Position numbers and translations under genes: made by a program. From positions 1 to 7,167 of the forward strand of contig JAPWUY010000087.1 of NCBI GenBank assembly GCA_028275295.1: 7,167 nt of DNA, given 5' to 3'. A model generated the notes under the pieces. It was not told where the DNA came from. It saw only the letters and a program-made list of their open reading frames with translations, and searched no databases. Shown here piece after piece: positions 2,568 to 5,518 of this stretch (its first letter is position 1; each line of letters opens with the position of its first letter). Source of the DNA: Thermodesulfobacteriota bacterium. Lineage in GTDB: Bacteria; Desulfobacterota; Desulfocorpusculales; Desulfocorpusculum.

Positions 2568-4106
2568 TCACATCTCCTCTTTTATCTGAAGGGGGTATCT
2601 CTTCCTGTACTCCAGCCTGTTGAGGGCATTCACGTATGCCTTGGCACTCGCCACTAAGACATCTGGATGGGTGCCCTGCCCCACTACCTCGTGCCCATTT
2701 GCCTCCAGTCTCACCGTGACCTCTCCTTGAGCATCTGATCCTCCTGTTATGGCATTTATGGCGAACCTCTTGAGCTTTGCCTTGGTGCCAGTTATTCGAG
2801 CTATGGTCTGGAACGTGGCGTCCACTGGACCTATGCCGAAGCCAGCTCCCGCATGCTCCACCCCATCTATCTCGAGCTTGACACTGGCCGTCGGCACAGT
2901 GACACTTCCGCTCGTAACATGGAGATAGACGAGCTTGTACTTCTCGGGAACTCTGAGGACCTCGTCCTCCACTATGGCCTCCAGGTCCTCATCATATACA
3001 TCCTTGTTCTTGTCGGCCAGAGCTTTGAAGCGCTGGAAAACTCGATCCAGATCCTCAGGCGTCAATTCATAGCCCAGTTTCTCGAGCCTGTCCTTCAGGG
3101 CATGTCTTCCTGAATGCTTTCCCAGCACAAGGGATGTCTGGCCCCATCCCACTGATTCGGGTGTCATGATCTCGTAAGTTCTCTTGTCCTTGAGAATCCC
3201 GTCCTGATGAATTCCCGATTCGTGGGAAAAGGCATTGGCCCCGACAATCGCTTTGTTGGGCTGCACGGGAATCCCTGTTATTCTCGAGACCATCCTGCTT
3301 GTGGGATAGAGAAGCTCTGTTCTTATCCTGGTTTCCACCCCGAACCTATCGGCCCTTGTCTTCAGGGCCATGACGACCTCTTCCAAGGCAGCATTCCCCG
3401 CTCTCTCTCCTATCCCGTTTATGGTGCACTCCACTTGTCTTGCCCCTGCAAGCACAGCAGCTAGGGAATTGGCCACGGCAAGTCCGAGATCGTTGTGGCA
3501 ATGGACACTCAGAGTGGCTTTGTCTATGTTGGCCACTGAGTTCCGGATCTGCCTTATGAGCTCACCGAACTCATCTGGAGTCGCGTAGCCCACTGTATCG
3601 GGAATGTTGACGATATTAGCGCCCGCTTCTATGGCTGCCTCCAGGACCTGGAAAAGGAATGTGGGCTCGGTCCTGGATGCATCCATGGGAGAGAACTCCA
3701 CGTCGTCGCACAGTTGCCTTGCGAACCTGACCATTTGAGCCGCCCAATCGAGCACCTCTTGCCTGTCTTTTCTCAGCTGATAGCGGAGATGGATATCCGA
3801 GGTCGAGAGGAACACATGGAGGCCTGGCCTCCTGGCCACCCTGACCGCATCCCATGCTCGCTCTATGTCCATCTTCTCGCACCTTGCCAGAGCGACCACC
3901 TTGGAGTCCTGAATCCTCTCGGCTATCCTCCTGACTGCCTGGAAATCTCCTTCAGAGGCCACTGGAAACCCAGCTTCTATGGAATCCACTCCAAGGCGCT
4001 CGAGCTGGAGCGCCACCTGGATCTTCTCCTCCACGTTCATTGTGGCCCCTGGAGACTGCTCTCCATCCCTCAAGGTAGTATCGAAAATTTGCACATACTC
4101 TGCCAT
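2568..4106 (-). CDS. leuA: 2-isopropylmalate synthase (LeuA)
   Basis: LeuA carries out the committed step of leucine synthesis: acetyl-CoA plus 2-ketoisovalerate gives 2-isopropylmalate. The 512 residues match the usual bacterial LeuA length. The HMGL-like TIM barrel opens with IFDTTLRDGEQSPGATM (metal ligand Asp9, Arg13). It continues with HCHNDLG (His202, His204 metal ligands), TINGIGERAGNAALEE (228-243) and the catalytic HESGIHQDG (295-303). Residues from about 385 to 505 form the C-terminal regulatory domain, with GFGIGPVDATFQTIARITG and the end motif GTHPDVLVASAKAYVNALN; in the family this domain mediates leucine feedback inhibition. The start is the ATG at 4106, 10 nt after GGAGGAGG, giving MAEYVQIFDTT. 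A TTG at 4115 lies too close to that site. The gene begins 17 bp after leuB. Citramalate or homocitrate synthase are the alternatives; the motifs and operon fit LeuA best. Confidence 0.96.
   Translation of the reverse strand: MAEYVQIFDTTLRDGEQSPGATMNVEEKIQVALQLERLGVDSIEAGFPVASEGDFQAVRRIAERIQDSKVVALARCEKMDIERAWDAVRVARRPGLHVFLSTSDIHLRYQLRKDRQEVLDWAAQMVRFARQLCDDVEFSPMDASRTEPTFLFQVLEAAIEAGANIVNIPDTVGYATPDEFGELIRQIRNSVANIDKATLSVHCHNDLGLAVANSLAAVLAGARQVECTINGIGERAGNAALEEVVMALKTRADRFGVETRIRTELLYPTSRMVSRITGIPVQPNKAIVGANAFSHESGIHQDGILKDKRTYEIMTPESVGWGQTSLVLGKHSGRHALKDRLEKLGYELTPEDLDRVFQRFKALADKNKDVYDEDLEAIVEDEVLRVPEKYKLVYLHVTSGSVTVPTASVKLEIDGVEHAGAGFGIGPVDATFQTIARITGTKAKLKRFAINAITGGSDAQGEVTVRLEANGHEVVGQGTHPDVLVASAKAYVNALNRLEYRKRYPLQIKEEM
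2574..2579 (-). promoter_or_regulatory. Ribosome binding site of leuC inside the end of leuA
   Basis: GAGGAG sits in the last codons of leuA. It is 8 nt from the ATG at 2565 but only 2 nt from an upstream in-frame GTG, which decides for the ATG. Confidence 0.75.
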
Positions 4107-4123: not shown

Positions 4124-5191
4124 CTAATCTTCGTCCATTGAGAGCAATTGGGCAATTCTGTCGCCCACCTCTGAGGTGGACATGCCCATTTGCCCGGCAC
4201 CCATTCCCCTCAACTCCTTGACAACCGTTCTCACAGCCCGATGTATCCTGGAGGCCGCCCTTTTTTCTCCGAGATGCTCGAGCATCATGGCACCGGCAAG
4301 GATCGCCGCTATGGGATTTATGGTCCCCTTCCCAGCGTGCTTCGGAGAGGACCCGTGGATGGGCTCGAACATGGACACCTTGCCGGGATGGATGTTCCCA
4401 GATGCAGCAAGACCTAAGCCCCCCTGAAGGGCTGCCCCCAGATCGGTGATTATGTCCCCGAACATGTTGTCCGTGACTATCACATCGAACTCTTCAGGGT
4501 TCTTGACCATCCACATGCATATGGCATCCACGTGACCGTAATCTGTTTGCACATCGGGATACTCTCGGGACAATTCCGAGAACACCCTGTCCCAAAGGTC
4601 GAATATGTAAGTGAGGACGTTCTTCTTCCCGCAAAGGGTGAGCTTCTTCCTGGGCCTCGTTCTGGCGAGATCGAAGGCGTACCTGAGACACCTCTCAACG
4701 CCTCTTCTCGTCTGTATTGACTCTTGAACAGCCACCTCGAAGGGAGTGCCCTTGGCAATGGTTCCTCCAGCCCCGATATAGAGCCCTTCTGTGTTCTCCC
4801 GCACCACCACAAAGTCTATGTGCTCGGGGCCCTTGTCCTTGAGAGGGGTTTCGACTCCAGGAAGGAGCTGTACTGGCCTCAGATTTATGTAGAGATCCAG
4901 CTCGAACCTGATCCTGAGGAGGATCTCCTTTTCCAAGAGCCCTGGTTTAACATGGGGATGCCCTATGGCCCCCAAGTATATGGCATCCATCTCCCTGAGC
5001 TCTTGGAGGGCCGTCTCTGGAAGGGTCTCCCTTGTCCTGAGAAAATGCTCGCCCCCAAAGGGATACTCCACGGTCTCGAGTGGGAAGCCTTCTATCTCCG
5101 AACACCTCCTCAGGACCTTGAGGCCCTCCCTCACTACCTCCGGTCCCACACCGTCCCCTGGTATCAAAGCCACACGATATGCTCTCTCCAT
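4124..5191 (-). CDS. leuB: 3-isopropylmalate dehydrogenase (LeuB)
   Basis: LeuB oxidatively decarboxylates 3-isopropylmalate to 2-ketoisocaproate. The protein has 355 residues, normal for the isocitrate/isopropylmalate dehydrogenase family. Visible family residues include [10 protein letters not shown] near the N-terminus and the substrate-arginine region [16 protein letters not shown]. The catalytic Tyr138 lies in [10 protein letters not shown], Lys190 in GKKNVL and Asp222 in HVDA, and the metal-binding aspartates 246 and 250 lie in [10 protein letters not shown]. The overall pattern resembles the actinobacterial (Mycobacterium-like) LeuB from memory. The coenzyme loop reads HGSSPKHAG (279-287), with Lys284-His285 where NAD-dependent enzymes usually have Asp-Ile, so NADP use is possible. 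The start is the ATG at 5191, directly after a perfect ribosome binding site; an ATG at 5209 would place that site inside the gene. It is the first structural gene of the operon, behind an attenuator leader. Confidence 0.93.
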
Positions 5192-5263: not shown

Positions 5264-5302
5264 AAAAATCGAAGAGGCCGTTGGTTGCCCAACGGCCTCC
5301 TC
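5264..5302 (-). terminator. Intrinsic terminator 2 of the leu leader (segments 5:6)
   Basis: The 14-bp stem pairs 5289-5302 with 5271-5284 and includes one G-U pair, with a GCAA tetraloop. It is followed after GA by five T's (5268-5264) on the minus strand. It begins immediately after the T-run of terminator 1 and shares its sequence plan, suggesting duplication. Confidence 0.85.
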
Positions 5303-5327
5303 AAAAATCCAAGGGCCGCGAGCAACC
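5283..5327 (-). promoter_or_regulatory. Possible second antiterminator helix (segments 4:5)
   Basis: The 3' arm of terminator 1 (5314-5327) can pair with the 5' arm and loop of terminator 2 (5283-5297). That gives 14 base pairs, two of them G-U, with one bulged base (5291) and a 16-nt loop. It can form only when terminator 1 is open, and it would then block terminator 2. The complementarity is visible; its use in the cell is inferred. Confidence 0.5.
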
Positions 5328-5343
5328 CCTTTGCCCGCGGCCC
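5303..5343 (-). terminator. Intrinsic terminator 1 of the leu leader (segments 3:4)
   Basis: The 13-bp GC-rich stem pairs 5331-5343 with 5313-5325, with one G-U pair and a 5-nt AGGGG loop. It is followed by TTGGA and five T's (5307-5303). Its 5' arm is also complementary to the segment just after the leucine codons of the leader peptide, as an attenuator requires. Confidence 0.87.
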
Positions 5344-5380
5344 CACCTTTCCTACGCCATGACCCAATGGGACAGCGGGC
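5333..5380 (-). promoter_or_regulatory. Antiterminator helix of the leu attenuator (segments 2:3)
   Basis: Positions 5366-5380 and 5333-5347 pair at 14 of 15 positions (three G-U pairs, one T-C mismatch) across an 18-nt loop that carries the leader peptide stop codon. The helix uses most of the 5' arm of terminator 1, so the two are mutually exclusive. Segment 2 begins 4 nt after the last of the clustered leucine codons. Confidence 0.75.
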
Positions 5381-5429
5381 TCTGGAGAAGGCTAAGGCCG
5401 AGAAGGAGGATCGTCTCCCTTTCAACCAT
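5352..5429 (-). CDS. leu leader peptide (LeuL-like), leucine-codon-rich
   Basis: This is a 25-codon reading frame ending in TAG, with the core ILLLGLSLL followed by QSPLSHW. Six leucine codons fall within eight consecutive codons (5408-5385: CTC CTT CTC GGC CTT AGC CTT CTC) and a seventh, CTG, follows at 5375-5373. The chosen ATG (5429) is 9 nt after GAGGG. An in-frame ATG at 5453 would give 33 residues and one more leucine, but its nearest good site, GAGGAG, is 13 nt away. The frame ends 8 nt before the 5' arm of terminator 1. In the known leu attenuators of proteobacteria, a ribosome stalled on leucine codons favours the antiterminator. I expect the same here: the peptide itself is probably not functional, and its translation is the sensor. 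No homology to a specific named leader was recognised. Confidence 0.82.
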   Translation of the reverse strand: MVERETILLLGLSLLQSPLSHWVMA

Positions 5430-5453
5430 TTTCCGAAGCCCTCTTGGTCCCAT
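5367..5453 (-). promoter_or_regulatory. Protector stem of the leu attenuator (segments 1:2)
   Basis: ATGGGAC (5447-5453) pairs perfectly with GTCCCAT (5367-5373), and GGGCTT (5436-5441) pairs with GAGCCC (5377-5382), separated by a small internal loop. The stem encloses the leucine codons and captures segment 2, so an untranslated leader would fall into the terminator state. Confidence 0.6.
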
Positions 5454-5489: not shown

Positions 5490-5518
5490 ATGCTACCCTA
5501 TCCCCGGACCCCAGTCAA
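5490..5518 (-). promoter_or_regulatory. Sigma70-like promoter of the leu operon
   Basis: TTGACT (5513-5518) and TAGCAT (5490-5495) are separated by exactly 17 bp on the minus strand, matching the -35 and -10 consensus at 5/6 and 4/6. Transcription would begin near 5483, about 30 nt before the first possible leader-peptide ATG. It lies 27 bp past the mtaB stop. Confidence 0.65.

Follow-up and report, generated by a model that had tools for sequence, protein, structure and literature searches.

Classical enterobacterial leu and trp attenuators combine a leader peptide with four RNA segments that form the pairings 1:2, 2:3, and 3:4 and with one terminator; they are not known to contain a 4:5 step. 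The leader analyzed here lies upstream of leuB in a 7,167-nucleotide stretch of DNA from a Thermodesulfobacteriota bacterium (assembly GCA_028275295.1, contig JAPWUY010000087.1), which we call the window. It resembles those attenuators in its leader peptide ORF and in its predicted 1:2, 2:3, and 3:4 pairings and differs from their four segments and single terminator in having six segments and two predicted terminators, T1 and T2.

Several other described leaders come close to this layout. In the hisL leader of Escherichia coli and Salmonella, a leader peptide with control codons is followed by an alternating chain of six segments that pair as AB/CD/EF in the off state and as BC/DE in the on state, with uridines after EF; the accessible part of that account gives hisL one terminator, at EF, whereas in the window 3:4 and 5:6 are both terminator-like (PMC10989985). 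Unlike hisL, the present layout belongs to another phylum, where it serves leu, ilv, trp, and aromatic genes. The rimP leader of Gammaproteobacteria has a tandem second terminator and a potential antiterminator but, in the passage available, neither a control-codon leader peptide nor an exchange of arms between the terminators is described, unlike in the window (PMC2965389). For ilvBNC of Corynebacterium glutamicum, a three-hairpin model joins a leader peptide with a terminator, an antiterminator, and an anti-antiterminator; it differs in having one terminator in the portion at hand, and the plural “terminators” is absent from the text (PMC11857589). Rfam gave no match in the window at an E value of ≤1. 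One of the loci compared below (L189) matched the Rfam trpB motif (RF04312) weakly, at 38.9 bits, which is below the 59-bit gathering score and places it outside that family; the motif is reported from Firmicutes and Fusobacteria as a proposed riboswitch for which a classic attenuator was not ruled out, and its description does not name a leader peptide.

We propose that the leuB leader is a ribosome-stall attenuator working as a six-segment switch, with 3:4/5:6 formed in the off state and 2:3/4:5 in the on state, so that one stall would open both predicted terminators; from the sequence comparisons and predicted folds, we put the probability of this reading at about 0.7. The six-segment topology is already known from hisL, and only the two-terminator version is new: in the open-licence literature, we found no description of two terminators coupled via 4:5 to one leader peptide. 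The original prediction concerned leu leaders; the layout is not special to them.

Segments of the leader and the 4:5 complementarity

All features of the leader are on the minus strand. A leader peptide open reading frame (ORF) of 33 codons (positions 5453 to 5352; MGPRGLRKMVERETILLLGLSLLQSPLSHWVMA) starts with ATG, stops 7 bases before T1, and aligns with a Leu-rich ORF in G001, the nearest relative compared. Its control codons CTC CTT CTC GGC CTT AGC CTT CTC (LLLGLSLL; 5385 to 5408) are kept as LLLGLSL in G001, and the Leu run in both genomes is what would be expected of a leader peptide carrying codons of its own pathway. Segment 2 (5369 to 5380; GCCCGCTGTCCC) is the putative 5′ half of the antiterminator, since, with a ribosome on Leu codons 16 to 20, the RNA as far as the T1 loop has its lowest predicted energy when segment 2 pairs with segment 3. 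A consensus scan placed T1, of 14 bp, at 5344 to 5312 and T2, of 16 bp, at 5304 to 5269. According to scan and folds, segment 3 (5331 to 5344) is the 5′ arm of T1; segment 4 (5312 to 5325), which the duplex and hairpin folds also support, is the 3′ arm of T1 and at the same time the partner of segment 5; segment 5 (5285 to 5304), which resembles segment 3, comprises the 5′ arm and GCAA loop of T2; and segment 6 (5269 to 5284) is the 3′ arm of T2. The U-run of T1 (5303 to 5307) is separated from the T1 stem by UGGA, and that of T2 lies at 5264 to 5268. Two bases, 5303 and 5304, belong both to the T1 U-run and to the foot of the T2 stem, so that the full 16-bp T2 stem uses part of the T1 U-run. 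Both hairpins are contained in the minimum-energy fold of 5380 to 5264 (z of −5.9 against shuffles), and scan and fold thus predict intrinsic terminators ahead of leuB. Each of the two hairpins is followed by a U-run in the window, in G001, and in many relatives, so these predicted terminators do not conform to the single terminator at EF of a his-type switch.

Segments 4 (5325 to 5312) and 5 (5304 to 5285) form 14 pairs at −20.9 kcal/mol in RNAduplex; the 14 pairs agree with the original prediction, which had counted one bulge where RNAduplex places two bulges of one base each, both in segment 5. Folded as a hairpin, in the stretch from segment 4 to the T2 loop, 4:5 reaches −20.5 kcal/mol. 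Shuffled versions of segment 5 paired as well as the real one in 87 of 5,000 cases, and 4 of 120 terminator-like 5′ arms from outside the leaders paired as well with segment 4 of the window. Judged from the window alone, the complementarity is moderately beyond chance, and it is the relatives that supply the convincing evidence.

The class sample comprised three genomes, namely, the window's own (G000), G001, and G002. G001 (LeuB, 80%) has the same leader layout upstream of leuB. Between the window and G001, segment 4 has changed at three positions, all of which pair with segment 5 in G001: a U·G pair became C-G, a C-G pair became U-A because both partners changed, and a C-A mismatch became U·G. 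At two of these three sites, the T1 pair is weakened from G-C to G·U. Because all three changes pair with segment 5 while two weaken T1, 4:5 was kept and even improved between the two genomes, while 3:4 lost strength. In G001, the 4:5 hairpin has a predicted energy of −23.9 kcal/mol, compared with −21.0 kcal/mol for its own T2, and 4:5 outweighs 5:6 even at full length. In G002, a tandem pair with a 4:5 pairing stands before leuA, and the peptide run is LILLLVVEVLLVLIL.

Recurrence and covariation of 4:5 across the phylum

Among 110 regions upstream of leuB (L004 to L113, L004 being the window; gene order at the other 108 was unchecked), tandem terminators occurred only in the window and G001. 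Since leuB thus proved a poor handle for tandem leaders, an RNA model and trpE were used instead. The covariance model, R1, was built from the two leu leaders of the window and G001, with only 3:4 and 5:6 as structure; at an E value of ≤0.01 it had hits in 46 of the 395 genomes searched from the phylum, both source genomes included. Its 39 loci yielded 36 for examination, L122 to L124 being left out as lying on the opposite strand or forming parts of places already included; the tandem pair was not called in eight of the 36 (L119, L121, L125, L129, L139, L143, L144, and L148). Besides those of the window, G001, and L119, leader ORFs were read in 26 of the 36 loci (unread: L121, L125, L129, L139, L143, L148, and L153), and a codon run was present in 24 of these 26, with none in L144 and L145. 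Trp (W) runs precede trpE, trpD, trpB-like genes, and some DAHP synthases; F/Y/W runs precede other DAHP synthases, ADH synthases, and an aminotransferase; L/I/V runs precede leuA and ilvB; F runs precede paaK and an ABC substrate-binding protein (identified by eye; no NCBIfam match); and an I run precedes an acyl-CoA dehydrogenase. Where the downstream gene is known, the codon run mostly fits it; in L120 (Ile, acyl-CoA dehydrogenase) and L140 (Phe, paaK), the fit is not obvious.

The second sample was chosen by protein score. trpE protein matches were found in 346 of the 395 genomes, and 150 places were listed, of which 110 were taken, namely, the 30 top-scoring ones and a further 80, hand-picked from the remaining 120 before the upstream DNA was seen; the places in G067, G106, and G142 were already R1 hits. 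A short ORF with WW was present in 45 of the 110 upstream regions, by a filter that let some spurious ORFs through and passed over L198 (one and the same place as L150). Of these 45 leaders, 22 were called tandem, 20 single (of which the first finder had called three tandem), and 3 lacking a terminator. Curation removed two mis-registered leaders (L180 and L210) and added by hand three that the first finder had called tandem and the second had missed (L172, L177, and L181), giving 23 leaders from eleven families, with six of the 23 from one family.

In the alignment of these 23 leaders (A3), the eight core 4:5 pairs were formed in 91.8% of cells, compared with 94.7% and 95.0% for 3:4 and 5:6, and sliding the 4:5 partner lowered pairing to 26 to 46%. 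Four of the eight core pairs had changed on both sides, and the 4:5 covariation score was reached by none of 500 shuffles (such counts are not probabilities for related sequences); cells with changes on both sides numbered 18 for 3:4, 12 for 5:6, and 8 for 4:5. In L225, for example, segment 4 reads GGUU, where most leaders have GGCU or GGCC, and segment 5 has the matching AACC, while segment 3 still carries G. As in a his-type switch (AB/CD/EF versus BC/DE, with DE conserved), the 4:5 pairing is conserved and covaries.

Arm swapping compared own with foreign partners in 22 trpE leaders (with L180 and L210 and without L172, L177, and L181) and 18 others, including the window and G001. The 18 came from the 28 tandem R1 loci after removal of the trpE leaders L131, L134, and L150, of the near copies L132, L142, L146, and L149, and of L128, L145, and L153, whose context was unclear (L128 has a WWWW ORF); L132 was added back for the segment 3/5 comparison and for the outside-arm and 3:6 tests. 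These non-trpE leaders were picked with R1, whose consensus already favors 4:5. Mean 4:5 energies were −18.95 for own and −15.70 for swapped arms in the trpE set (z of −4.6; z of −5.0 without L180 and L210) and −21.98 and −19.12 in the other set (z of −4.2), and in neither set did any of 20,000 permutations do as well; the permutation sums cancel additive effects of arm length and GC content. Covariation of segment 4 with segment 5 in relatives, which the original prediction had considered decisive, was thus found in the leu pair, in the 23 trpE leaders, and in the swap tests, and it supports the two predicted states, 1:2/3:4/5:6 and 2:3/4:5, apart from segment 1.

For a background from outside the leaders, we used 120 terminator-like hairpins from 108 loci on both strands, coding stretches included; an earlier terminator pool was dropped since it included leader terminators. 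The own 4:5 pairing ranked in the best 5% against these arms in 33 of 42 leaders and beat all 120 in 16. Strong tandem terminators in 0.79 Mb of loci made up 12 rows, one place appearing twice, a number that is not an independent count because many of the loci were chosen by the model; the 4:5 values of the three strong tandem pairs outside leaders were −8.3, −9.2, and −14.0.

Some individual loci have features of their own. L120, in G001, has an Ile-run ORF (SNIIIRGYI) before a gene resembling acyl-CoA dehydrogenase or acryloyl-CoA reductase and has the longest 4:5 helix of the model-hit set (17 pairs). L119, on contig C130 of the genome to which the window belongs, is a Trp leader (VNWCWRNL) upstream of a trpD-like gene; its arms look six-segment-like by eye, but its first hairpin has no U-run. 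In L130 and L142, Phe-run leaders (FFFCFF) and tandem terminators precede the ABC substrate-binding protein mentioned above, which looks like a branched-chain amino acid binder and may serve in Phe uptake. In L140, a Phe-run leader (FRFFFWGFFF) and tandem terminators stand before paaK, a phenylacetate-CoA ligase gene just below the family cutoff and an unusual target for Phe attenuation. L126 carries two tandem attenuators about 1.4 kb apart, with a WWWW leader before trpD and an FYFSFYY leader before the next gene, which is DAHP synthase-like, judged by its start. WWCWWW leaders precede TrpB-like genes in L147 (TIGR01415) and L149 (by likeness) and support a role of these genes in Trp synthesis.

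Predicted mechanism and competing explanations

If Leu-tRNA is plentiful, the ribosome would run toward the stop codon and cover segment 2 in passing; 3:4 would then form, and T1 would terminate transcription. With segment 4 occupied in 3:4, a polymerase escaping T1 would meet 5:6, that is, T2. A shortage of Leu-tRNA would instead stall the ribosome on Leu codons 16 to 20, and segment 2 would pair with segment 3. Segment 4, thereby released, would take up segment 5 and its loop while segment 6 is still untranscribed, and T2 would therefore not nucleate. The off state would be upheld either by the passing ribosome or by 1:2. In predicted folds up to the T1 loop, 2:3 was the lowest-energy structure with the ribosome on Leu codon 16, 17, 18, or 20 (4 of 4; −27.5 to −30.8 kcal/mol). 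Once 4:5 has formed, nucleation of segment 6 at the T2 loop is unlikely in the model, since 4:5 covers that loop. The calculated barrier from 4:5 to 5:6, considering the direct path alone and hence an upper bound, was 19.9 kcal/mol in the window with 6 of the 16 bases of segment 6 out and 11.2 kcal/mol from 8 bases on; in G001, it was 16 kcal/mol once most of segment 6 was out.

A number of results weigh against this reading. With segment 4 out, the predicted equilibrium prefers 3:4 over 2:3 in all three stall positions, and in the full-length window 5:6 (−29.8 kcal/mol) outweighs 4:5 (−20.9 kcal/mol); because equilibrium favors 3:4 and 5:6, both on-state steps must be kinetic in the window. 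Since the balance shifts to 3:4 when segment 4 appears, 2:3 would hold by forming first, as in any such attenuator. A stepwise folding script failed its control, giving full T1 in none of four runs with segment 2 masked, and we draw no conclusion from it; in one stalled run with this script, T1 formed and 2:3 was absent, and 20 stalled settings gave a clean 2:3/4:5 state in 2, full 4:5 without 2:3 in 6 more, and 5:6 in 2. Segment 1 is also a problem. In the minimum-energy fold of the free leader, the candidate (5432 to 5441) pairs with 5386 to 5377, a stretch that overlaps the start of segment 2. Because it lies upstream of the Leu codons, without overlapping them, its classical role is doubtful and is the least supported part of the anatomy. 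Furthermore, T1 may terminate poorly in the window, since its U-run is set off from the stem by four bases, and the second terminator is optional among trpE leaders, because 20 of the 45 WW leaders were called single-terminator. On the comparative side, all 4:5 statistics ignore kinship among the sequences, and L187 has a C-A mismatch in 4:5. The own arms are best only on average: they rank first in only 4 of 22 trpE leaders and 5 of the 18 others, and in L138 they come last among 18. The outside hairpins are weak on average (−12.9) and thus a lenient background, and L253 and L179 were beaten by 17 and 11 of the 120 outside arms.

The offset U-run would also fit a plain his-type switch in which T1 is not a working terminator, 3:4 acts as an anti-antiterminator, 4:5 as the antiterminator, and T2 as the sole terminator. 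The trpD leader L119 in the same genome, in which the first hairpin lacks a U-run, is in line with such a switch, as are the poor or missing U-runs after T1 in L214, L218, L253, L256, and L128 and the accessible account of hisL, which shares the topology and has uridines after EF (PMC10989985). We nevertheless regard it as unlikely, as a U-run directly follows T1 in G001 and many relatives (for example, L116, L118, L126, L135, and L248) and the two-terminator form is therefore common. Alternatively, T2 could be an independent backup terminator copied from T1, with the 4:5 complementarity a functionless by-product. Segments 5 and 3 are identical at 361 of 432 compared positions, as copying would have it, and with the register fixed, segment 5 sites that differ from segment 3 still pair with segment 4 in 23 of 34 cells, slightly above the 60% of unrelated rows, a weak result that tells against coupling; the innermost column, at the end of the helix, accounts for 9 of the 11 losses. 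When the register is optimized, 62 of 71 differing positions still pair, a register chosen for pairing that makes the fixed-register count the fairer one. A plain copy of T1, however, predicts 3:6 to be as strong as 4:5, whereas 4:5 was the stronger in 33 of 42 leaders (Wilcoxon P = 3e-4; 17 of 23 trpE leaders alone, P = 0.04). Own arms also pair better than swapped ones on average, and a constitutive T2 would presumably shut the operon during starvation too, all of which makes a mere copy quite unlikely.

Segment 2 or the stalled ribosome might act on T2 in another way, through a 2:5 pairing or pausing, with 4:5 secondary. Segments 2 and 5 do have GCCC/GGGC complementarity in common in the sequence; the predicted fold of the free leader, however, contains no 2:5 pairing, segment 2 is held by segment 3 in the stalled folds to the T1 loop, and 4:5 covaries (in a comparison confined to 4:5), so that we consider such a route very unlikely. 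That two GC-rich hairpins are complementary by chance would be compatible with the segment 5 shuffles of the window alone, 87 of 5,000 of which pair as well; it is already disfavored, to the point of being scarcely credible, by the finding that 4:5 is retained, through compensating changes, both in G001 and in the trpE leaders, which represent eleven families.

Operon context and implications

The promoter-like site of the leader (TTGACT-17-TAGCAT; 5490 to 5518, minus strand) came from a consensus scan, and TTGACT also occurs at the aligned place in G001. The minus-strand order is a MiaB-like gene (named by eye from its ORF), the promoter-like site, the leader ORF, T1, T2, leuB, leuA, leuC, and leuD. 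The first operon gene, leuB (3-isopropylmalate dehydrogenase; 4124 to 5191), matched NF002898 with 514.9 bits (cutoff, 393), and leuA (2-isopropylmalate synthase; 2568 to 4106) matched TIGR00973 with 741.6 bits (cutoff, 598.7). The ORFs at 1291 to 2571 and 763 to 1287, also on the minus strand, are putatively leuC and leuD, encoding the large and small subunits of isopropylmalate dehydratase.

Beyond this operon, we lean slightly toward the view that the two-terminator relay is a standard form of amino acid control across the deltaproteobacterial phylum, for Leu, Ile/Val, Trp, and aromatic pathways and some Phe-linked genes, with the two terminators always in the same state and with selection keeping segment 5 nearly identical to segment 3 so that it carries the signal on. 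The rule of 3:4/5:6 versus 2:3/4:5 would predict attenuators that Rfam misses and supply further control signals for trp, aromatic, leu, and ilv operons; the codon runs of the leaders also hint at substrates, for example, Phe in the case of transporters whose leaders carry a Phe run. If the proposed switch is true, its second terminator would be slaved to the first by base pairing; a single sensor would then command the tight shut-off that two terminators give, with induction preserved, and the arrangement would offer a design for low-leak switches.
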